Assembly (NCBI GenBank): GCA_021324185.1
Contig: JAJPJN010000040.1
Coordinates: 1-35,774, forward strand
DNA from: Terriglobia bacterium
GTDB taxonomy: Bacteria > Acidobacteriota > Terriglobia > Bryobacterales > Bryobacteraceae
Reading direction: 5' to 3'
Length of the DNA: 35,774 nt
Notes under the pieces: model-generated
Told to the model about the DNA's origin: nothing
What the model saw: the letters and a program-made list of their open reading frames with translations, nothing else
The model's database searches: none
Part shown: positions 2,801 to 32,528 of the stretch, one piece after another
How positions within the stretch are numbered: position 1 is the first letter of the stretch
Layout: every line of letters starts with the position of its first letter
Made by a program: the position numbers and the translations under genes

Positions 2801-2828
2801 AGCTCAAAGCTGAAAGCTGACAGCTACT
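2801..2828. repeat. Four tandem 7-bp AGCT-repeats between convergent genes
   Basis: AGCTCAA, AGCTGAA, AGCTGAC and AGCTACT follow one another without a gap, a 7-bp period with the invariant core AGCT. The last unit overlaps the TAG stop (2824-2826, minus strand) of the caspase-like gene. The array sits in the 40-nt space between two convergent stop codons, 17 nt after the permease stop. It does not form a classical stem with a U-tract. It may be a small dispersed repeat or a remnant of slippage. Confidence 0.6.
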
Positions 2829-5004
2829 TTACTTGGGCCAGCACCGAATCGATATTCTGTATGTACTTCCGTGAATACTTTGCCTGGTCCACATCGGCAT
2901 TTAACGCAATCACCGAACTAAAATGCTTGCGCGCCTCCACCAGCAGATCCAGCCCGGTAGGCGCCGATGTGGCCGACGTGTTCAAAGCGTTGAACTTACT
3001 GCTGTATAAGATGCCCAGCCGGTATTGCGCATACAGATTCTGCGGGTCATATGTAAGTGCCGTCTCGCAGTACTTGATCGCCGAATCGTAATGCTTCAGC
3101 AGGTATTCGCAGTCGCAGAAGCCGAAGTTAGCCTGTGCGCGCAATTGCTTCCAGATATCGGTCTGGGCCGCCCGCTTTTTGCTGCCGCTGCCGATGAGCC
3201 ATGGCATCACATAGTAATTGAACTTGCCGCCGGCGCCCGCCGCAAAGTTGCTGAGCGCCAGATACTGCGAATACTCGGTCTCGGCTTTGGGTAAGTCGGC
3301 GGTCGTTTTCGCCCCGTCGTCATAGAGACGCAGGCTGTCGGCCAGCCATAAGTGAGCCTCGGCCTTGTTAGGAATCAATTTCACCGAATCCTCTCCGGCC
3401 TTCACCGCCTGTTCGTAAGCGCCTTTGCGGAAATAGGCCTGAGATAGAAGGTAAGCTGCCGTGCCGTTGTTGGCATCATGCTGGGTTACAAAGTTAAGCT
3501 GCCGGATAGCTTCGTCTAAGTCGCCTGAATCGAGCAGCCCGCCCGCATAACTGATGCGCGCATCCAAGTCGGCAGGCTCAATCTGCACTGCTTGCTTAAA
3601 GTATTGATTGGCGGTATCAAAATCGTTCAGTGCGCGATAGGCGCGGCCTGCATAAGTCGCAGCCTGGTTATAAGTAGGATCGATTTGTAGCGCCGCTTTG
3701 AACTCTTCCGCCGCCGCCTTGTAGTTCTGTTCGTAGCCTTTGTTGTAAAGCTCCATGCCGCGGTTGAAATGATCAAGCGCCGCCTTCTTCCTCACCTTCG
3801 CAATCAGAATACGAATGCTGACCGTCGTCTCTTGTCCGGGATAAACTTCTTCCTCGCGCGGTCCATCCGGCATATAGCCTTCGCGGTTGCCTTGAATGGT
3901 ATGTAGTCCCGGCTGCAGGCCGGGAAGACGCAGCGGAGTCGCTTTATTTACAACGCCCTCGCTCTTGCCGTCCACCGTGATTTCCACGCCGTCCATATTC
4001 GTCTCGATCACGAGAGTGCCGGCCTTGGGCTGCAATGGATTCGGTGCCGCCGCGCGGCCCGGATAATAGGCGAGCACCGCATCTCCCGCGTCCGACGTGT
4101 TCGCTGGCTCCGATACCGGATGCTGGCGGTCGGCAGTGGCTTGCGCCACGTTGTACTTTACGTAGTTGCTCAGATCCATCGGATCGATAATGCCCGTATG
4201 CGCATCATCTGCTTCGCCCTCGTAGCCTTTCACCAGATAGTAAGTGAAGATGCCATGCCCGCCGCCCCACGCCGGCCCTTCGAAGCTGACCTCGCCTGCT
4301 TTACTCGCGCTGAGAACAAACAAGGAGTTATTCGCCAAGCCCAATAACTCCTGATCGAGATGCGCGCGGTCTGCAATCGCGCCGCTGTGGCAGGCGTCTG
4401 CAAACAGTACTTTTTGTTTCGCTTGAATATTCTTGCTGATCACATCGCCCAGCCGGCTCATCGGGTAAGCGCTGCCGCCGATATTATTCGGATCGACATC
4501 GTAAGGCGCCAAATAGCTGTGCCCGTCGATGACAAAGCCATGTCCTGCAAAGTAGATGAGCACGTTATCGTTCGCCTTGGCGACAGACGGCAACCAGTTT
4601 TCGAGCTGGTCTTTTAGATTGGCATAAGTAGCCTGGTCGTCTTTGAGTACATGAACGTTCTCCGCCGGATACTGCCCGCCTTCTTTGCTGATCAGCACCG
4701 TGTACATGGAGTCGGCGTCGCGGTCCGAATATTTTAGTTGCGCTTGCGGCGGCAGATTCTTGTAATGCGAGATCCCCACGACCAGCGCGTACCAGCGAGG
4801 TACCGTCGGATTCAACGGCTTTCGGATAGGCGATGTCGTCGTAGGTGGTGCGGTATTCGTCGTCGGTATGGTTGGATGACCAGGTACCAGGACGAGATCG
4901 CGATGCTGCTGATCCTGAGTTGGCGCGGATGGCGCGGGCGGCGTTTGCGCCCAAATGCTCCCACAACAACCCGTCAGTAGAAGCAGTATCGTAGCGTATT
5001 TCAT
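2824..5004 (-). CDS. Secreted caspase-family protease with PEGA and TPR domains
   Basis: 726 residues. Export signal at 1-19 (LLLLTGCCGSIWAQ; a lipobox reading LLTG-C is possible, so it may be a lipoprotein). After a Pro/Thr-rich linker (20-68), a caspase p20-like domain spans about 70-315. The catalytic dyad is visible: His155 in YFAGHG and Cys205 in ADACHSG. A PEGA domain follows (about 328-400), then tetratricopeptide repeats (about 405-700) with a long C-terminal helix. Peptidase C14 domains of this kind are usually cytoplasmic or extracytoplasmic cysteine proteases with basic or acidic P1 preference; the substrate is unknown here. It is the last gene of a four-gene operon, 15 nt after the first DUF4384 gene. 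TPR and PEGA imply protein and cell-wall or surface contacts. Confidence 0.88.
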   Translation of the reverse strand: MKYATILLLLTGCCGSIWAQTPPAPSAPTQDQQHRDLVLVPGHPTIPTTNTAPPTTTSPIRKPLNPTVPRWYALVVGISHYKNLPPQAQLKYSDRDADSMYTVLISKEGGQYPAENVHVLKDDQATYANLKDQLENWLPSVAKANDNVLIYFAGHGFVIDGHSYLAPYDVDPNNIGGSAYPMSRLGDVISKNIQAKQKVLFADACHSGAIADRAHLDQELLGLANNSLFVLSASKAGEVSFEGPAWGGGHGIFTYYLVKGYEGEADDAHTGIIDPMDLSNYVKYNVAQATADRQHPVSEPANTSDAGDAVLAYYPGRAAAPNPLQPKAGTLVIETNMDGVEITVDGKSEGVVNKATPLRLPGLQPGLHTIQGNREGYMPDGPREEEVYPGQETTVSIRILIAKVRKKAALDHFNRGMELYNKGYEQNYKAAAEEFKAALQIDPTYNQAATYAGRAYRALNDFDTANQYFKQAVQIEPADLDARISYAGGLLDSGDLDEAIRQLNFVTQHDANNGTAAYLLSQAYFRKGAYEQAVKAGEDSVKLIPNKAEAHLWLADSLRLYDDGAKTTADLPKAETEYSQYLALSNFAAGAGGKFNYYVMPWLIGSGSKKRAAQTDIWKQLRAQANFGFCDCEYLLKHYDSAIKYCETALTYDPQNLYAQYRLGILYSSKFNALNTSATSAPTGLDLLVEARKHFSSVIALNADVDQAKYSRKYIQNIDSVLAQVK

Positions 5005-5019
5005 GTCAATTTCCCGGAC

Positions 5020-5742
5020 TTACTTATGAGCGATTCTGAAGTGATAAACCACCGGTGCGTCGAACGGCTCCGTTGAAGAGACGGAGGTATCGTTCGACGG
5101 CTTCACCACGACTAAGTCGCGGCTGCCCGAGGCAACTTGTGGAACATTTAACGGTAACGTCTCGCCTGGCTGCACTGGCTTCAATCCGGCCTTGCTGTCC
5201 AGGCATTCCCCGCGCGTGCGAAATAACTCATCGTCACAGCGCGGTGTGGCCGATTCAAACGCCTTCGCATCTGCGTCCGATTGCTGCGTATGCACTTCCG
5301 GCCGGTCCTGTTCTTCCCGGGCGTGAGGAAAAAGGGATTTGCCCAGATCCAGCGGCGAGATCAGAAGATACACCGTTTCGTAGCCGGGCGGACCCTGAAT
5401 TCTAAACCAGCCGGAATCCGAATCCGGAATCACGTACTCGTGGCCGGCCTGCACTTCACGGTCTCCCGATTCGCCCGCTCGTGGAAAGAGCTGCTCATAT
5501 TTGCCGGAAGATCCGTGGTTCAGCACATACAGATAGCCGTTCACGCCCGGCCGCAGCCGGAAGCGGATCAGATCGCCTCCGTCAAATATGTGCGCCGGGT
5601 CCATAACCCGTACTGCACTCCCGTCCTTTTTCTCGAGGATCAGATCGTAGCGGCGATTTAACTTCGCCCGGGTCTGCGCCCATACGGCGATGGAACAGAC
5701 GAACAACACGCCTGCGGCGGCACGGCGACCAGTAACATGCAT
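5020..5742 (-). CDS. Secreted DUF4384-domain protein (copy 1)
   Basis: 240 residues with a signal peptide (1-22, cleavage after VWAQ). A DUF4384 domain occupies about 32-135: it begins with YDLILEKKDGSAVRV, then shows GGDLIRFRLRPGVNGYLYVLNHGSSGKYEQLFP and a YVIPDS strand. The C-terminal part carries RDLVVVKPSNDT and ends VVYHFRIAHK. DUF4384 is a beta-rich domain of unknown function that is often fused to caspase-like domains in other bacteria, and here it is a separate protein encoded 15 nt upstream of a caspase gene. It is therefore a candidate partner or regulator of that protease. It is paralogous to the next upstream gene, 12 nt away. Confidence 0.82.
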   Translation of the reverse strand: MHVTGRRAAAGVLFVCSIAVWAQTRAKLNRRYDLILEKKDGSAVRVMDPAHIFDGGDLIRFRLRPGVNGYLYVLNHGSSGKYEQLFPRAGESGDREVQAGHEYVIPDSDSGWFRIQGPPGYETVYLLISPLDLGKSLFPHAREEQDRPEVHTQQSDADAKAFESATPRCDDELFRTRGECLDSKAGLKPVQPGETLPLNVPQVASGSRDLVVVKPSNDTSVSSTEPFDAPVVYHFRIAHK

Positions 5743-5754
5743 AATTCTGCGGGC

Positions 5755-6501
5755 TTACTTGTGAGAGAGGACAACGTTTACAACAATGTGAGGATCTGCG
5801 GTTTTCTCGGAGGCCTTGTTCACCACATACGTCGCCTTATCTGACTGCGACGAGCTTGCGGTGTCGTCAGCCTTAGTAAATACCAGATCGCGCGACTGTA
5901 CCTCGCCCTGTAATTTCGCAATCACCTGATCGTTCAGCGCGCCGCCATTGGCACGCTGCAACGATGCGATTGTTTCATCCAGATTCGTTTCCGGCTCGCG
6001 GCTCAACAATACGAACAGCTTCTCTTGCCCGCTGTCTGCATCGAACTGGAAAGATCCGTCACCCGGAACCAGATACTCCTGCCCCGCGCTGAGCTTTGTC
6101 TCGCTTCCTCCGGGCGGCGGATAGAGCGGGCGCCATTTGCCGCTCGATCCGTGCTCAATGATGTAGAGATATCCCGGCTGGTTCGACATCAGGCTTAGCC
6201 GGATGGAGTCGCCCGCATGAAACTCCGAATCCGGAGATACTTCTTCGAATGTCCCGTCCGCTCTTCTCTTCAGAACCGAGTAGCGCAGGCCCAAGGGCGC
6301 TTTCACCGCGACTTTTTGAGCGCTAGCGGCGCTCCTTTTCGGGGCAGTCTTCTGCGGCGTCGGCGGGCGCTTGCCCACCAGATCGGCCGCAGACCAAAAC
6401 GCATCGCGCGCGTTCAGCCCGTTATCTTGGGCGCTCGCGAATGTGGCCAGAAAAAAAGCCGCCGCGGCGCACCCCGCCAGCCGGCCCGTCACACGTGACA
6501 T
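5755..6501 (-). CDS. Secreted DUF4384-domain protein (copy 2)
   Basis: 248 residues with a signal peptide (1-24, ending FASAQ). An Ala/Lys-rich linker (40-70) precedes a DUF4384 domain (about 72-170) with LRYSVLKRRADGTFEEV, the HAGDSIRLSLMSNQPGYLYI segment and the shared HGSSGKW...LYPPPGG motif. The C-terminus has RDLVFTKADDT, a YVVNK strand and ends VVNVVLSHK, matching the tail of copy 1 (RDLV...HK). It starts 23 nt after the kinase stop, so it is very likely co-transcribed. The function is unknown; a regulatory or adaptor role to the kinase or the caspase is inferred from the operon only. Confidence 0.82.
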   Translation of the reverse strand: MSRVTGRLAGCAAAAFFLATFASAQDNGLNARDAFWSAADLVGKRPPTPQKTAPKRSAASAQKVAVKAPLGLRYSVLKRRADGTFEEVSPDSEFHAGDSIRLSLMSNQPGYLYIIEHGSSGKWRPLYPPPGGSETKLSAGQEYLVPGDGSFQFDADSGQEKLFVLLSREPETNLDETIASLQRANGGALNDQVIAKLQGEVQSRDLVFTKADDTASSSQSDKATYVVNKASEKTADPHIVVNVVLSHK

Positions 6502-6524
6502 TGTTACTCCTCTTACCCTCTATG

Positions 6525-8333
6525 CTACTGCGCGTCCTGGACGCAGCGGAAACCAATTTTCGGCGAAGGTACATCTTTCGGATAGCCGCGCCTCATGTAG
6601 CAGCGCCCCTGCTGCTTCAAATCCGCGGTCTCGCCGAAATAGCCGCCTTTGACAACCTTCCAATCTCGCGAGAACTTGTCTGTTCCTAATGCTCGCTTCA
6701 GGTCATTAATCTCGGCCGGGCCATCAGGAAAATGGCTGGTGGTCCATTCCGCCACATTACCGGCCATGTTGTACACGCCGTATGGCGATTCCCGATCGGG
6801 GTTACTCAAAACCGGCTGCAGCGTGGTGGGAGGATCTATCCACGGCTCATCGCCCCACGGGTAAAGGCGCCCCTTCGGCCCGCGCGCCGCTTTTTCCCAC
6901 TCTTTCTCACTGGGCAGGCGTTTGCCCATCCAGTTGGCATAAGCCTCGGCATCTTCGAAAGAAACATTCGAGACCGGAAAATCCGGATGCGTCGTCAAGT
7001 CCGCCCCGGCCGGCGGCTTATGCCCCGTTTCATCGCAGAAGATCTTGTAACTGGCATTCGAAACTTCCGTCCGGTCAATATAAAAAGCCGGTAGATTCAC
7101 CGTCTGCTTTTCATTGGGCGAAAGAGGATCCGTACTGTTGCCGAAAATGAAATCTCCGGCTGGCACCAGCAGCATGATGCCTTTGAACCGGTCGCGCCGC
7201 ACGGTTACTGGCGTAGCTGCGGTTTCCGCCTTGGCTACAGGAACCGTTTGCGCCGGTTTAGAAGCGGTTTTGTGCAAATAGAGGTATAGGGCGCAGCAGG
7301 CCAGAGCCAGAATCGCGATGACCGGAACAACAACCACCGCTTTGATTCGGAATTTTCCCTTCGGCGCTGCCACTGCTGCCGCAGGATTCGTAGCCGCCGG
7401 TGTATTCGCCTCCGGAATGATACGCCCGCTGACCACCGGCGCCACCGAATTAGGCCGGATTCCGAGCGGGGTTTGCGCTCCGCTGAACGTGTTTAAATCA
7501 CTCATCAACTCCTCAGCGGACTGATGGCGCTGGGCCGGATTCTTTTCGAGCAGCCTTTTGACAATCCGGCAAAGCTCAGGCGGGATGTGCGGATCGAGTT
7601 GCGTTAGATCGGGCGGCGGCTGCTCAATGTGCGCCAGTTCAATCGCCCGGTACGAATCACCTTCGAACGGCTTGCATCCGGCCAACAATTCAAAGAACAC
7701 CACGCCTAGCGAGTAGAGGTCGCTGCGCACATCGCATGGTTCGCCGCGAATCTGTTCCGGGCTCATGTAATACGTCGTGCCCACCCGCTCGGTGGCGGCG
7801 GTCAGCAGGCTCGGTACGTCGGTCGCCTTGGCAATTCCGAAGTCCAGCACAATAACCCGCCCGGCGCGGTCGAGATATAAATTGGACGGTTTAAGATCCC
7901 GGTGCACGACTGCGTGCGCTGATGCCCAAGCCAGCGCGTCCGCCACCTGGCAGATGATCTTGGCAGCATCCGCTGGATTCATTTTTGGATTGCGCCGAAG
8001 ATACTTCGCCAGATCCTCGCCCTCAACGTACTGCATGATGAGGTAATACAGCCCGTTGGCCGCGCCAATGTCGAAAATAGTCACGATGTTGGGGTGGCCG
8101 GATAAATTCGCGGCGGTTCGGGCTTCCTGCACGAAACGGGCGACAATGCGATCATCTTGCGCCAGCTCGAGCGATAAAACCTTCACGGCAAACATTGCGC
8201 CATGAACCCGGTGTCGCGCCAGATACACTTCGGCCATTCCCCCGCCGCCGATCCAGCGTAAGATCTCGTATTTATCGCCGAGTGTCTGGGTCAGCAGATC
8301 CTGAATCCGCTCTTGAATCTGCTCTCGATGCAT
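6525..8333 (-). CDS. Transmembrane Ser/Thr protein kinase with C-terminal FGE-sulfatase-like domain
   Basis: 602 residues. The Hanks-type kinase domain (about 22-285) is complete: glycine loop GGGGMAEVYLA (29-39), Lys51, HRDLKPSN with Asp146, DFG at 164-166, and SPE at 191-193. A Pro/Ala linker leads to one membrane helix (about 331-354). The extracytoplasmic part (about 385-600) is an FGE-sulfatase (SUMF1-like) domain, with MLLVPAGDFIFGN at its start, RTEVSNASYKIFC, NWMGKRLPSEKEWEKAARG, YPWGDEP, and GFRCVQ at the end. Kinases with FGE-like sensors are common in Acidobacteriota and known elsewhere (for example chlamydial Pkn1), where the domain probably binds a ligand rather than making formylglycine. 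It is the first gene of the operon and divergent from the FecR-like gene. No strong ribosome site precedes the ATG. Confidence 0.93.
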   Translation of the reverse strand: MHREQIQERIQDLLTQTLGDKYEILRWIGGGGMAEVYLARHRVHGAMFAVKVLSLELAQDDRIVARFVQEARTAANLSGHPNIVTIFDIGAANGLYYLIMQYVEGEDLAKYLRRNPKMNPADAAKIICQVADALAWASAHAVVHRDLKPSNLYLDRAGRVIVLDFGIAKATDVPSLLTAATERVGTTYYMSPEQIRGEPCDVRSDLYSLGVVFFELLAGCKPFEGDSYRAIELAHIEQPPPDLTQLDPHIPPELCRIVKRLLEKNPAQRHQSAEELMSDLNTFSGAQTPLGIRPNSVAPVVSGRIIPEANTPAATNPAAAVAAPKGKFRIKAVVVVPVIAILALACCALYLYLHKTASKPAQTVPVAKAETAATPVTVRRDRFKGIMLLVPAGDFIFGNSTDPLSPNEKQTVNLPAFYIDRTEVSNASYKIFCDETGHKPPAGADLTTHPDFPVSNVSFEDAEAYANWMGKRLPSEKEWEKAARGPKGRLYPWGDEPWIDPPTTLQPVLSNPDRESPYGVYNMAGNVAEWTTSHFPDGPAEINDLKRALGTDKFSRDWKVVKGGYFGETADLKQQGRCYMRRGYPKDVPSPKIGFRCVQDAQ

Positions 8334-8487
8334 CGATCTCTATCACTCTACCGCTCACCGGGTGGAGCATGTTGGGGCAGCTATCTGATTGTAAGGAGGA
8401 ATATAGCTCAACCCTGTTATTTGTGATATTCTAAACACCGCGAAGTACCAGGCGATTCGAATAGCACAGGAAATAAGAAGACACATA
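8334..8487. promoter_or_regulatory. Divergent intergenic region between kinase operon and FecR-like gene
   Basis: This 154-bp space must carry the promoters of both the minus-strand kinase operon and the plus-strand FecR-like gene. On the plus strand TATTCT at 8427-8432 is an acceptable -10 element, but no -35 box was found at the right spacing. AAGAAG at 8477-8482 is the likely ribosome site of the FecR-like gene (ATG 8488). AAGGAGGA at 8393-8400 is a strong Shine-Dalgarno-like string with no good start codon behind it. Confidence 0.4.
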
Positions 8488-9537
8488 ATGCAGCGTGCCT
8501 CACTTTGTGGCCTGATTGCCGCCGTCGCAATCCCACTGGGTCTAGCGGCTTACCAGGTTTCGCCTTCCGCCTTTCACATTGCCATCATTGATGGCGATGG
8601 CGCCATGAACAATATTCAGGGCCGCGTGGCGCAGGAACCTATCGTTCAGGTGACGGATGAAAATCATAAGCCGGTCAGAGGCGCCTATGTCTTCTTCAGC
8701 GGTCCGAAATCCGGCCCGGGCGTGACATTCGCAAACGGCTCGACGGAATTCACCGCCACCACGGACGATCTGGGACGTGCTGTCGCACAAGGATTAACGC
8801 CGAATGGCCAGACCGGCAGTTTCGATATCCAGGTCCGCGTTACGTATAACGGCCAAACCGTCGGCGAGACCAAAATTCATGAATCGAACGTGTCCGGCAA
8901 CGTGGCCAATCTATCCCGCAGCCTGCAATCCGGCGCCAGCAATACGCCGATCGGGCCGCTGGGGCCAGGAGTTCTGGGCGTTGCAATCGGCCCGAGATTT
9001 GACCTGAACGGCAGCGAAGTCCCGGACAACGCGAACCTCATGGCCGGCGCACAGATCGTTTCTTTAGACAAGACCATCCGAATTCATCTGAAGGACGGCT
9101 GCGATTACCTTTTAGCGCCTAATTCAGCAGCCCGCATTGAGAATGGCAGGCTGATTCTCGAACGCGGCACGGTGCGCGCGCGCCACTGCGGGAAGTGCAA
9201 AGTGGTGGCTGGTTTTTGGATCGTGACCGGCGATCCGGATGCCGATGGCGTAATTGCCTATTCGGGCGGAAATCTGCAGGTCGCATCGTTAACCGGAACG
9301 CTGCATGTTGCGGGCAGTCAAGGCGCGCTCGCCGGCACAATCGTTCCCGGCGGATATTCCACCTTCGGCGCGCAGACGGGCGCGGCTGCCGGTGCAAGCG
9401 GCGCCACCGCGACGGGTGCTGCTCCGGCCGGCACCAGATCTCTTGTGCTCTATAGCGCAGGCTTGGGCGCGGCGCTGGCAGGCTTAGGAATCGCTGTGGA
9501 CGCTATTCTGCAGCCTGGCTCACCCACCAGCCCGTAA
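8488..9537 (+). CDS. Exported Ig-like and FecR-like domain protein
   Basis: 349 residues. An N-terminal hydrophobic segment (about 5-22) serves as signal or anchor. Residues about 50-132 form a Big_1-like beta sandwich (VTDENHKPVRGAYVFFSG, TDDLGRA, VTYNGQTVGETKI). Residues about 185-295 resemble a FecR beta-helix (IRIHLKDGCDYLLAPNSAAR, LERGTVRARH, LTGTLHVAG). A CxxC pair (Cys234, Cys237) lies inside that region. An Ala/Gly-rich linker is followed by a C-terminal hydrophobic helix (about 318-340), so the protein may span or hug a membrane. It is divergent from the kinase operon, which suggests shared control. Its last 18 nt overlap the convergent aminotransferase gene. Not a classical FecR regulator: no adjacent sigma factor is seen. 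Confidence 0.7.
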   Translation: MQRASLCGLIAAVAIPLGLAAYQVSPSAFHIAIIDGDGAMNNIQGRVAQEPIVQVTDENHKPVRGAYVFFSGPKSGPGVTFANGSTEFTATTDDLGRAVAQGLTPNGQTGSFDIQVRVTYNGQTVGETKIHESNVSGNVANLSRSLQSGASNTPIGPLGPGVLGVAIGPRFDLNGSEVPDNANLMAGAQIVSLDKTIRIHLKDGCDYLLAPNSAARIENGRLILERGTVRARHCGKCKVVAGFWIVTGDPDADGVIAYSGGNLQVASLTGTLHVAGSQGALAGTIVPGGYSTFGAQTGAAAGASGATATGAAPAGTRSLVLYSAGLGAALAGLGIAVDAILQPGSPTSP

Positions 9538-25230: not shown

Positions 25231-26142
25231 TTACTGCAAAGTCCTGAGCAGTTCCGGAGTGACGCGCCAGGCGCCATGGACCTGTTTACCGCTGGTTTCG
25301 AATGTGCCGGAAGTGAGCAAACCAGTCAAATCCGCGGGATTGGCTTTCTCGTGCTCGTGGGCCAGCTCGAGCTTCAGCAAATTGGTATCAATCTCAAGTT
25401 GCTTGCGAATCGTGTCGGCGGTGACGGCTGAGGGGCAATCAGCCGTAAGCTTGATGTCAAAGGCAGCAGAAGCGCCCGCTGACGGCGCCAGCGCAATGAT
25501 AGCCGAGTTAGCAGACTGAAGCGAGATGGCGAAGATGCGCAAGGGGAGCGGCAGCGCGACAGGGTTTTTCAGCAGCTCCGGCGCGAGGCTCAGCCAGACG
25601 GGATCGGAGGGCAGCGGCTGCGGCATCGATAAATGCCCGGGGTGAATTTCGGCGGCGAGTCTTTTATCTTGCCCGACGGCGATAGCGAGCACGTCGGGCT
25701 GTATTCGAACCGTGCCGATCCATTTCCCGCCACTGCGGGTTGGCAAACGGCAGACCTGGTTCGTGCATTCGCCACCTTGTTGCTTCACGTAATCAGCAAT
25801 GCTTGTCCAATCGAACCTACCTTTCACGGCCAAAAATATGCCGTCTGGTTTGACGGAGCCCGCGATGGCATCAAGATCTTTCGAATAATCAAAATTGGTC
25901 GCCAGCACGAAGGCGTGATATTCGGGATCGTGTGAACCAGCCAGCAGCTTCAATAAGCCCGCGCGGCGCAGCAGATCCAGGCGGGCATAAAAGATGGTGG
26001 CGTTGTCGGCGGGCAACAGTCCTAACAGGTCTTTCTCTGAACCGACAATGCGGTGCTGATAGCGATTGATGGCGTACAGGGCGGCAAAAGTTCCGGCTGC
26101 GATGAGCGCCAGTACCAGCCACGGTTTGTTGTGAAGCCGCAA
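25231..26142 (-). CDS. Membrane-anchored uncharacterised protein (paralogue of 31560-32528)
   Basis: 303 residues: one N-terminal membrane helix (about 8-25), then an extracytoplasmic region. It has LLGLLPADNATIFYARLD near the N-terminus, FDYSKDLDAIAG, GIFLAVKGRFDWTSIADYV, a cysteine pair (GGECTNQVCRLP), and a C-terminal LTGLLTSGTFETSGKQVHGAW. The order of these blocks (LVPA start, Asp-rich LDAIAG, W-I/Y loop, SDVVRF-like helix, terminal GTF/NTSGxxx strand) is the same in the exported protein at 31560-32528, so the two are probably paralogues. DUF3352-like proteins have such a pattern, but the assignment is weak. It starts six nucleotides after the aroF stop. Function unknown. Confidence 0.65.
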   Translation of the reverse strand: MRLHNKPWLVLALIAAGTFAALYAINRYQHRIVGSEKDLLGLLPADNATIFYARLDLLRRAGLLKLLAGSHDPEYHAFVLATNFDYSKDLDAIAGSVKPDGIFLAVKGRFDWTSIADYVKQQGGECTNQVCRLPTRSGGKWIGTVRIQPDVLAIAVGQDKRLAAEIHPGHLSMPQPLPSDPVWLSLAPELLKNPVALPLPLRIFAISLQSANSAIIALAPSAGASAAFDIKLTADCPSAVTADTIRKQLEIDTNLLKLELAHEHEKANPADLTGLLTSGTFETSGKQVHGAWRVTPELLRTLQ

Positions 26143-30450: not shown

Positions 30451-31587
30451 GTGACCGTTCCGGCTCCAATCAGCTTTGATGCGAGAGCGGCTGATCTTCG
30501 CGAAAGAGTGGAGGCACTGCCGCAGGCGGCTGGAATTTACCGTCTCCGGTTACAAACCGGGCCGCCGCATCTGGCTTCGTCCCGAAATCTAAGGCGCCGC
30601 CTGAAACGCCTTCTTTTGCCGGCGCAGGCGGCAGACAATCTGCTTGCCCGCTTGCGCGAGAGCCTGATGGCGGTAGATTGCTGGCTAACGGCATCGCGGC
30701 TGGAATCCCTCCTCGTCATGCATGCGCTGGCGAAGCAACATTATCCGGAAGACTATCTGTTCCGGTTGAAGCTGCGTATACCGTGGTTTGTCGGGCTGAG
30801 CTTGAACGATCCATTTCCCCGGTTAACGGTGAGCAACCGCGTGCCGCGCAAAGAGGGCCTGGTGGTTGGCCCTTTCCCCACCCGGGCTGCGGCGCAAGTC
30901 TATGAACAGCAGGTTTCCGGGCTGTTTCAGATACGGCGTTGCAGCGAACCATTGAGGCCTTCGCCGGAACATCCGGGCTGCGTGTACGGCGAAATGAACC
31001 AGTGCCTGCGGCCGTGCCAGTGTGCGGTAACGCGGGAAGAGTATTCGAGCGAAGTTCAGCGCGTGAGCGAGTTCCTGGCGACAAATGGGCGCGCGGCGCT
31101 GGCGGCCCTGACGGTAGCGCGCGACCGTGCGGCTGAACAGACCGATTTCGAGCAGGCGGCACATATTCATAAACAGGTGGAGAAGATCCGCGCTGCGGCG
31201 GCCGTGCGCGATGAGATAGCGACCAACGTTTACCATCTGAACGGAGTGGCTTTGACGCGTGGCCTGGAGAACCGCGAATTCCGGCTGTGGCCCATGGTGG
31301 AAGGCTACTGGCAGGATCGGGTAAGGCTGGAAATTCCGCAGGACGATTGGCAGGCAAAATCGCTGGATCAGACTTTGCGCGAACTACTGATGCCCGGCGT
31401 ATCCCGAGCCGTGAAACAAGGCCGACGGGCGGAAGATTTGGCCATCTTCACCCGCTGGTATTATTCGTCCTGGCGCGATGGCGAGTGGTTCTCGTTCCGC
31501 CAAATCGACGATCTCAATTACCGCAAGCTGGTGAAACAAATCTCCGCGATGGCGAAAGACTACCGGGCGGATTTAAATCCACGGTGA
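30451..31587 (+). CDS. UvrC-like protein with degenerate GIY-YIG domain and no C-terminal nuclease
   Basis: 378 residues from GTG. It aligns with the N-terminal half of UvrC, the incision subunit of nucleotide-excision repair, but lacks the C-terminal RNase H-like and HhH parts. GIY (28-30) is kept with Tyr30; the second motif (normally YVGKA.NLRKR) reads HLASSRNLRRR, so its Tyr is His40 and the Gly is gone. Arg50 and Glu85 are retained. Cys164, Cys177, Cys185 and Cys189 (spacing 12, 7, 3) match the Fe-S cysteine arrangement known from UvrC. A UVR-like coiled coil (about 215-250) follows. It is perhaps a structural, regulatory or non-nucleolytic paralogue. It overlaps a convergent gene by 28 nt. 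Confidence 0.78.
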   Translation: MTVPAPISFDARAADLRERVEALPQAAGIYRLRLQTGPPHLASSRNLRRRLKRLLLPAQAADNLLARLRESLMAVDCWLTASRLESLLVMHALAKQHYPEDYLFRLKLRIPWFVGLSLNDPFPRLTVSNRVPRKEGLVVGPFPTRAAAQVYEQQVSGLFQIRRCSEPLRPSPEHPGCVYGEMNQCLRPCQCAVTREEYSSEVQRVSEFLATNGRAALAALTVARDRAAEQTDFEQAAHIHKQVEKIRAAAAVRDEIATNVYHLNGVALTRGLENREFRLWPMVEGYWQDRVRLEIPQDDWQAKSLDQTLRELLMPGVSRAVKQGRRAEDLAIFTRWYYSSWRDGEWFSFRQIDDLNYRKLVKQISAMAKDYRADLNPR

Positions 31588-32528
31588 GGATGAGCTTTCG
31601 GGCCCAGGTCGGCCAATTGCTCCAGACTTTTTTCAGGAACGGCCAAACTGGCTTGAAATTCATTGCCGGAAGTGTTCAGCGTCATGCCATCGAGAGCGGA
31701 GGCGAACACCTGCGCCTGCGGCTGGTTTTGCCGCTGTAACTGGACAAAGCTTGCTGCAAAGCGGACCACATCGCTTAAAGAAACTGCGTCCTGAGGCGAG
31801 CGGGTAATGGCATCAAACGTGAACGCAACCGGATCTCCGAATAAGATGCCGCCGGCCGCCTGACGTACGGATTGAAACGCCTGCGCCTGGGGTTTGAGCT
31901 GCTGATTGGTGGCGGCGTTTACGTGGTCAGTCAACAATGTGCCGGGCAATATGGAGGCGAACCAGGCGTCGTTGTTTGTGCTGATTTTGGAAATGAGCGC
32001 CTGCAGGGCGGGATCGAGCACAGAGGCGTTGGCGCGGTTCGCGATTATCTGCTGCACGGAAGCAAGGTCGCCGAAGACGGCCACGCCGGTCATGGGTATT
32101 GCAAAGGCGATGGACTGGCCGTGCTCGCTATGGACGTACAGATCGATGCCATTGACATTTTGAGTGCTGCCGTTATTCGACAGGATCTGCTGCTGTATCC
32201 ACGGCACCGGGAAAGTGCCGCGAGCGAGGATCACAAACTTTGTCTGACCTTTTGCAACCGGCTGGCCGATGCCGGCAAATACAAGCGTTTGGAGATCGCG
32301 TCTGGGGTCGAAACCGGATTGCTGGACGAACTCATTGAATCCGGTGTCCGTATCCATTTTGGAGAGCATATACTGCCCTAAAGTAGAACTGGAGGCCTGC
32401 TGGACGTTGATGCTGGAAACGGTGGTGGCGGTGGCTGGAACCAGCGCGAGAAGGCCGTTATCGGCGGAGGCGAGCGCGGCGGTGGCGGCAAAGGAAAACA
32501 GAACTGAAACAGCAAGGAAGCGGTGCAT
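31560..32528 (-). CDS. Exported uncharacterised protein (paralogue of 25231-26142)
   Basis: 322 residues. Signal peptide (1-20, FAATAALASA). It has LLALVPATATTVSSINVQ, LQTLVFAGIGQPVAKGQTKF, FVILARGTFPVPWIQQQI, VAVFGDLASVQQII, ISLSDVVRF-like SLSDVVRFAASFVQLQRQ, and GMTLNTSGNEFQASLAVPEKSLEQL. A related order of blocks is seen in the anchored protein at 25231-26142. AGAGG six to eight nucleotides before the ATG is a good ribosome site. It converges with the UvrC-like gene, its 3' end overlapping it by 28 nt. The function is unknown; the term DUF3352-like would be speculative. Confidence 0.65.
   Translation of the reverse strand: MHRFLAVSVLFSFAATAALASADNGLLALVPATATTVSSINVQQASSSTLGQYMLSKMDTDTGFNEFVQQSGFDPRRDLQTLVFAGIGQPVAKGQTKFVILARGTFPVPWIQQQILSNNGSTQNVNGIDLYVHSEHGQSIAFAIPMTGVAVFGDLASVQQIIANRANASVLDPALQALISKISTNNDAWFASILPGTLLTDHVNAATNQQLKPQAQAFQSVRQAAGGILFGDPVAFTFDAITRSPQDAVSLSDVVRFAASFVQLQRQNQPQAQVFASALDGMTLNTSGNEFQASLAVPEKSLEQLADLGPKAHPHRGFKSAR

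Follow-up and report, generated by a model that had tools for sequence, protein, structure and literature searches.

Relation to described systems

In the threonine-phosphorylation pathway of the type VI secretion system (T6SS), which comprises PpkA, TagQRST, Fha and PppA, the transmembrane Ser/Thr kinase PpkA is controlled from the periplasm; its activator TagR, which is periplasmic and associated with the outer membrane, acts probably by direct contact with the periplasmic domain of the kinase (as stated in a passage of PMC6082577), and a part of PMC13411936 lists TagR1 of the HSI-I T6SS among the proteins with an FGE-sulfatase domain. The window considered here is the whole stretch of DNA analysed, 35,774 nucleotides from a Terriglobia bacterium of the Bryobacteraceae (Acidobacteriota). 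It contains a run of genes for a transmembrane Ser/Thr kinase with a C-terminal domain resembling formylglycine-generating enzyme (KIN-FGE), two predicted exported DUF4384 proteins (D1 and D2) and a predicted exported protein with caspase, PEGA and tetratricopeptide repeat (TPR) parts (CASP), together with a divergent gene for an exported immunoglobulin (Ig)-like protein (IG). With a probability of roughly 0.5, these genes encode a single-polypeptide sensor kinase of the PpkA/TagR kind and a periplasmic caspase module, which together would govern a T6SS or contractile injection machine.

The likeness to the PpkA pathway lies in the transmembrane Ser/Thr kinase, and may extend to the FGE label published for TagR and to the forkhead-associated (FHA) proteins encoded near KIN-FGE in some relatives (at locus L074 and, as a weak match, in an injection operon described below). 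Since TagR is an FGE-domain activator of PpkA, the simplest reading of KIN-FGE is that both parts are present in one chain. The locus differs from the known pathway in this fusion, in the addition of two DUF4384 proteins and a caspase, and in the position of the window genes outside any T6SS cluster. A second described relative is PknS of Xanthomonas citri, a Hanks-type kinase with a periplasmic domain acting on the T6SS, which carries periplasmic TPRs, is needed for T6SS expression and exerts its effect via the sigma factor EcfK (according to a part of PMC13147305); here, in contrast, the TPRs are on a separate caspase protein and the FGE domain would be the outer part of the kinase.

CASP resembles the prokaryotic metacaspases and orthocaspases (Peptidase C14) in its C14 domain, His-Cys dyad and DxC motif. 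Passages of the literature report FGE as a metacaspase partner domain (PMC3501461) and DUF4384 at the C-terminus of trypsin-like pseudo-orthocaspases, as well as its frequent co-occurrence with N-terminal kinase domains (PMC6426788). Here, unlike in the described proteins, most of the domains are encoded by separate adjacent genes, and in CASP the PEGA and TPR parts come after the caspase. The predicted structure is also similar to the MALT1 paracaspase, a caspase-Ig3 protein (Foldseek match 4i1p_C, E 3.5e-10; for the caspase alone 3v4o_A, TM 0.70 by target), but when both domains are compared the root-mean-square deviation reaches about 21 A, so that the domain arrangement is not matched and nothing points to a common function. 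A description of this gene set was not found in open-licence PubMed Central papers, where what came up on Acidobacteria together with T6SS, caspases or injection systems was for the most part unrelated; the module is real and conserved, and its combination is new while its parts are known.

Conservation and composition of the gene set

The arrangement claimed by the initial annotation, four genes on one strand with gaps of 23, 12 and 15 nt, agrees with the coordinates of the open reading frames (ORFs) in the region 2824-9537 of the window, and its domain labels for the four genes (Pkinase, FGE-sulfatase, DUF4384 twice, Peptidase_C14, PEGA and TPRs) were recovered by Pfam. Two promoter-like sites were found in the locus against 3.6 expected, and 12 terminator-like sites against 7.3 expected, counts that do not mark out one transcript. 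In the genome from which the window comes, which is 96.85% complete, no DUF4384 genes other than D1 and D2 were found, and there are three FGE genes and four C14 genes.

Relatives were collected in two samples. The first consists of 80 CASP loci (L labels), the best 80 of 239 confirmed matches in a scan with the CASP alignment, all from Acidobacteriota, mainly Bryobacterales and Acidobacteriaceae, or from unplaced genomes (one named only 'bacterium'); the second consists of 80 genomes, the window's own included, searched for DUF4384 (G labels). ORFs beyond the window were taken from a simple codon-usage caller, which misses small genes, so that all gene-order counts are lower bounds. The two sets overlap on contigs (for example, L086 is G041 and L121 is G020) and contain apparent near-duplicates (L081/L082 and L099/L101), and their counts are therefore not independent.

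In the first sample D2 is directly before CASP in 72 of the 78 loci reaching that far, and D1 precedes D2 in 59/74. Upstream of D1, the 55 judgeable loci have IG in divergent orientation (25), a same-strand FGE gene (8), a divergent kinase-FGE gene (1) or another gene (21); the same-strand FGE gene is a kinase-FGE in seven cases, the eighth being cut by the contig end, and thus the full order KIN-FGE, D1, D2, CASP is seen in seven loci plus the one cut. Conservation of the order in related genomes had been set as a check by the initial annotation; the order is conserved, D1-D2-CASP recurring in most of the 80 loci, more than chance would give. In the second sample DUF4384 is present in 27/80 genomes; the 34 DUF4384 regions retrieved from the relatives include 16 with D1-D2-CASP, one with D2-CASP and one with D1-D2 without CASP, the rest being other settings. 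FGE genes lie within 10 kb of the core in 6/17 relatives against 0.47 expected (P 3.6e-6). The constant core is D2-CASP, usually with D1, and KIN-FGE is a frequent but movable partner.

The argument from domain fusions, by which the genes had been linked as a unit, is strengthened by a caspase-DUF4384 protein in L051, adjoining a caspase-FGE protein with all matches above the cut-off, and by kinase-DUF4384 proteins at L132:8313-9875 and L140:4502-6067, each encoded immediately before CASP, where a kinase whose outer part is DUF4384-like takes the place of the separate genes (L132 was the one scanned with Pfam, and its DUF4384 match is below the cut-off). A kinase with a weak DUF4384 match is also present in L050. 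On these two grounds, the order kept in relatives and the domain fusions, the four genes are taken to form one unit, probably for membrane signalling and proteolysis.

KIN-FGE matches Pkinase (1.1e-51) and FGE-sulfatase (7.2e-47). Its catalytic residues K51, D146 and D164 are intact and invariant in 17/17 aligned relatives, among which C597 is the sole invariant cysteine of the FGE domain. Formylglycine-generating enzyme has two active-site cysteines; because only one is conserved here, enzymatic formylglycine generation by KIN-FGE is unlikely. The window protein has an identity of 47-52% with ten relatives and of 33-38% with another six, and in a tree of 28 kinases it falls in a clade of 12 (support 0.998) inside a group of 23 (0.999); this kinase set was gathered through the CASP and DUF4384 searches, so that kinases lacking such neighbours would be missed. 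D1 directly follows KIN-FGE in 11 of the 12 clade members (gap -14 to 82 nt), and in the twelfth, L054, one gene lies between them. In L094, L111 and L143 the KIN-FGE-D1 pair is located away from D2-CASP, which indicates that kinase and D1 go together.

DUF4384 (PF14326; cut-off 27 bits) is matched by D2 (1.5e-14, 54.3 bits) and by D1 (2.3e-12, 47.3 bits). The D1 model is an Ig-like beta-sandwich (mean pLDDT 79.5), in which an Arg-Asp-Leu (RDL) segment precedes the last three predicted strands. A novel fold was considered for D1 and dropped, the model looking Ig-like; Foldseek returned no match to it at E 0.001 or better, the best VIA-align Z score (6.8 over 90 residues) may reflect a common arrangement only, and no solved relative was found by sequence for D1 or IG. 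In D2, C169 and C180 are invariant in 72/72 sequences.

CASP matches Peptidase_C14 (5.5e-19), PEGA (1.1e-7) and TPRs, is conserved over its whole length, and is modelled as caspase, PEGA and TPR parts with a disordered linker at residues 15-61. The dyad His155/Cys205, reported intact by the initial annotation, is invariant in 56/56 aligned orthologues, and D203 before C205 is invariant as well. In metacaspases an Asp in this position favours basic P1 residues. An EF-hand-like loop (D266, N/S/D268, D270, G271, E277) is retained by almost every orthologue, D270 and E277 being present in 55/56, and may bind calcium.

Injection-machine genes and the proposed function of the module

According to the preferred reading, in which the module controls an injection machine, KIN-FGE would be a receptor kinase with the kinase domain inside and the FGE-like domain outside, D1 its exported Ig-fold partner (ligand or modulator), and D2 a partner of CASP acting in the same compartment as D1; CASP would be an exported caspase with a basic-residue-type active site. 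An envelope event would alter D1, D2 or CASP outside the membrane, and the FGE domain would read the altered proteins and switch the kinase, which in turn would phosphorylate an FHA-type target and so govern the T6SS or contractile injection machine. The earlier proposal that an extracytoplasmic signal enters through the FGE part of the kinase remains plausible; the output proposed with it, a protease cascade at the cell surface, has been replaced by control of an injection machine as the likelier one, because kinase-FGE genes stand beside T6SS or injection genes in relatives.

In fact, such genes are found in the locus of 7/12 members of the window's kinase clade, when a divergent injection operon is counted. 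In L074 two tssK-like genes lie 3.7 kb upstream and an FHA-transglycosylase gene downstream. In L094 a vgrG-type gene, a PAAR gene, a gene of 131 aa, a DcrB-like gene (match below the cut-off), KIN-FGE and D1 follow each other on the same strand, and from the PAAR gene through to KIN-FGE adjacent genes overlap by 4 nt. In L078, L079, L080, L087 and L095 the order is KIN-FGE, D1, D2, CASP, a weak-FHA gene, VWA, TssB-like and TssC (L087 is cut after TssB-like), and L088, cut at both ends, has this gene set in part; a weak FHA match, below the cut-off, was found in 4/5 scanned copies of the gene after CASP. The genes after CASP in L078 had been taken for TssA, TssC, Hcp and TssK, which was wrong, Pfam identifying VWA, TssB-like and TssC. 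The window, L054, L076, L111 and L143 have no T6SS or injection gene in what was tested (L054 being outside the phmmer set). In the sister group tssM is directly beside KIN-FGE in 5/11 members, called by phmmer in L086, L096, L104 and L120 and, in L044, by clustering with the Pfam-identified IcmF/TssM of L045. The neighbour g472 of L086, L100 and L119 is a methyltransferase-type protein and was left out of the T6SS counts.

Over the whole first sample, T6SS or injection genes lie within 10 kb of CASP in 13/80 loci by phmmer, against about 1.4 expected on a rough model assuming two 30-kb clusters in 6 Mb, and L094 was added by Pfam. TssK is within 25 kb of the core in 3/16 cases against 0.30 expected (P 0.003). 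At the level of whole genomes, TssK was found in 18/19 genomes with the core versus 15/61 without it (all 80 genomes), in 17/18 versus 14/30 within the family (P 6e-4), and in 15/16 versus 9/21 among genomes at least 90% complete (P 0.001); the core set includes G029, which has D1-D2 with no CASP at the pair. The window's own genome encodes a T6SS with TssK twice, TssM, TssF, TssG, a ClpB/ClpV-type ATPase and a VgrG-type protein, to which KIN-FGE might be linked.

Several results weigh against control of an injection machine. By the phmmer queries used, 67/80 loci have no injection gene, and most Pfam matches in the injection operon are below the cut-off. The TssK association is weaker with one genome per genus (15/16 versus 8/16, P 0.008), and shared ancestry may inflate it. 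TssK was searched for in 50 CASP genomes from the 80 loci. A strong match (E 1e-40 or better) is present in 37 of them; the match is weak in 5, and in 8 there is no match. L078-type loci account for 6 of these last 13 genomes, and the other 7 are also without adjacent injection genes, L143 among them, which carries a window-type KIN-FGE and D1. G042 has the core at 99% completeness and is without TssK. On the window's contig, whose end is also that of the window, no T6SS gene was found among the scanned proteins, and in the own genome no kinase follows tssM. Finally, the window CASP is the sole sequence of 56 without D270 and E277, its EF-hand-like loop being degenerate.

The seven genomes without TssK or an adjacent injection operon are compatible with the main rival, rather unlikely in our estimate, in which KIN-FGE is a general envelope-stress receptor, the caspase module serves the maintenance of surface or periplasmic proteins, and the T6SS neighbours are due to chance or to general envelope regulation. 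The occurrence of D2-CASP, IG and its companions without D1 or KIN-FGE in L081, L083 and L097 fits this explanation, as does the presence of several FGE genes (2 to 13) in each relative; however, one kinase clade recurs in repeated, independent kinds of injection-machine context, and the TssK association holds within the family.

Quite improbable is a biological-conflict or cell-death unit in which the sensing of an invader would let the caspase act on its own cell. The caspase-FGE and caspase-DUF4384 fusions of L051 would suit it, and a passage of PMC3501461 places FGE-sulfatase, with 33 sequences, fifth among the most widespread domains that accompany prokaryotic metacaspases. In PADLOC, the PD-T4-6 kinase models match KIN-FGE (2.3e-88), but in its kinase part only, and such matches are generic, the model having no given cut-off. 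Moreover, the export signals read at the start of CASP, D1 and D2 make a cytoplasmic suicide role unlikely, the NCBIfam model of EACC1-associated conflict caspases (NF047832) gives CASP 84 bits against a cut-off of 140, and the conservation across the family resembles that of a core-genome module.

A more specific form of injection-machine control, in which the periplasmic caspase gates the machine through an Arg-Asp/Glu-Leu site common to CASP, D1 and D2, is improbable. A breach of the envelope would admit calcium, acting through the EF-hand-like loop present in most orthologues, CASP would cleave or bind its own linker, D1 and D2, and the altered Ig-fold D1 would switch KIN-FGE and lead to assembly of the T6SS or contractile injection machine. 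The CASP linker scores 11.2 with the RDL segment of D1, above the maximum of 300 column shuffles (9.9). As strong proof of an interaction the motif is weakened, the surely unrelated kinase catalytic loop HRDLKP scoring 9.9 and D2 7.9; with a kinase loop so near the score of D1, the shared motif is treated as a lead only. The predicted disorder of the linker also makes the CASP model silent on where it would bind.

That D1, D2 or CASP are cargo or immunity proteins of a T6SS effector locus, travelling with vgrG-PAAR islands, is very unlikely: the run from the vgrG-type gene to D1 in L094, on one strand and with overlaps, suggests it, but this is one locus of 80, the three proteins have export signals of the ordinary type, and CASP is conserved over its full length, unlike typical polymorphic effectors. 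Lastly, a sensor whose hypervariable FGE (C-type-lectin-like) end is rewritten by a diversity-generating retroelement, modelled on cyanobacterial systems whose targets, in a part of PMC7517822, include caspases and kinases with an N-terminal kinase domain and a C-terminal C-type-lectin-like variable, ligand-binding domain, is rejected for the own genome, since no reverse transcriptase (PF00078) match was found in it at 96.85% completeness.

Three observations on injection genes in relatives stand apart from these readings. The L078-type operon (L078:3800-22028, and also L079, L080, L087 and L095, from metagenome-assembled genomes) encodes, along with KIN-FGE, D1, D2, CASP and the divergent injection genes, a ThiF/E1-like protein (above the cut-off), RING-like and E2-like proteins (below the cut-off) and a possible ubiquitin-like protein of 86 aa; such a ubiquitin-like cassette inside an injection-machine operon merits separate study. 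At L098:13195-14571 a single frame matches VipA (N-terminal) and VipB, which could reflect a tssB-tssC fusion or a rearranged sequence. In many Bryobacteraceae-type relatives (G017, G018, G020, G036 and others) a single cluster contains a second tssK gene within a few kb of the first, a seemingly unusual arrangement for a T6SS.

The divergent gene and the features of the window

The divergent gene had been described as exported, Ig-like and FecR-like; the exported Ig-like character stands, and the FecR-like one is not supported. The best match of IG is a weak one to Big_1 (E 0.029, below the cut-off), no FecR family matched in Pfam at E 0.1 or better and NCBIfam gave no match at E 0.1, so that FecR signalling was rejected. 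IG is found near nine of the 34 DUF4384 regions, and in these nine relatives its N-terminal Ig-like part is kept and its middle region (window 8905-9417) almost wholly absent. In many CASP loci IG is the first of several divergent genes, among them another exported one (C4) and one rich in Ig parts (C5), the latter having He_PIG domains in L035, the single member scanned.

Elsewhere in the window, the ORF list includes two exported proteins of unknown kind with a similar mature start (LLxLxPA), at 25231-26142 and 31560-32528, and neither the Rfam scan nor the tRNA scan returned a match in the window. The coordinates of the features of the locus are collected in Table 1.

Table 1. Features of the KIN-FGE, D1, D2, CASP and IG genes, in positions of the window.
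Feature	Position	Strand	Basis
KIN-FGE, transmembrane Ser/Thr kinase ending in an FGE-like domain, first gene of the putative operon, 602 aa	6525..8333	-	ORF, Pfam
KIN-FGE protein kinase domain, residues 22-277	7503..8270	-	Pfam, alignment
KIN-FGE probable membrane span, about residues 331-351	7281..7343	-	read from sequence
KIN-FGE FGE-like domain, residues 387-598, probably on outer side of membrane	6540..7175	-	Pfam, alignment
D1, exported DUF4384 protein, 248 aa	5755..6501	-	ORF, Pfam
D1 Arg-Asp-Leu, residues 204-206, invariant in 64/64	5884..5892	-	alignment, model
D2, exported DUF4384 protein, 240 aa, directly upstream of CASP	5020..5742	-	ORF, Pfam
D2 Arg-Asp-Leu, residues 208-210	5113..5121	-	R 62/72, D or E 69/72, L 62/72
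CASP, exported caspase-PEGA-TPR protein, 726 aa	2824..5004	-	ORF, Pfam, model
CASP Arg-Asp-Leu in predicted disordered linker, residues 35-37	4894..4902	-	R and D 56/56, L 55/56
CASP caspase (C14) domain with H155, C205 and invariant D203	4105..4791	-	Pfam, alignment
CASP EF-hand-like loop position, residues 266-277, C-terminal part of caspase domain	4174..4209	-	alignment
CASP PEGA domain, residues 329-399	3808..4020	-	Pfam
CASP TPR array, about residues 405-700	2905..3792	-	Pfam, model
IG, divergent exported protein, 349 aa	8488..9537	+	ORF, Pfam

Meaning for the Acidobacteriota

If control of an injection machine is the function of the module, the fused chain would combine, in a single molecule, sensing of the TagR type with a kinase of the PpkA type, and an exported caspase with Ig-fold partners would take part in controlling contractile injection machines in a soil phylum that is dominant yet little studied. 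DUF4384, so far without a function, would be given one, and the exported bacterial caspase would acquire a testable role; in particular, if the caspase were also the gate, the T6SS or contractile injection machine would be under protease-triggered control.

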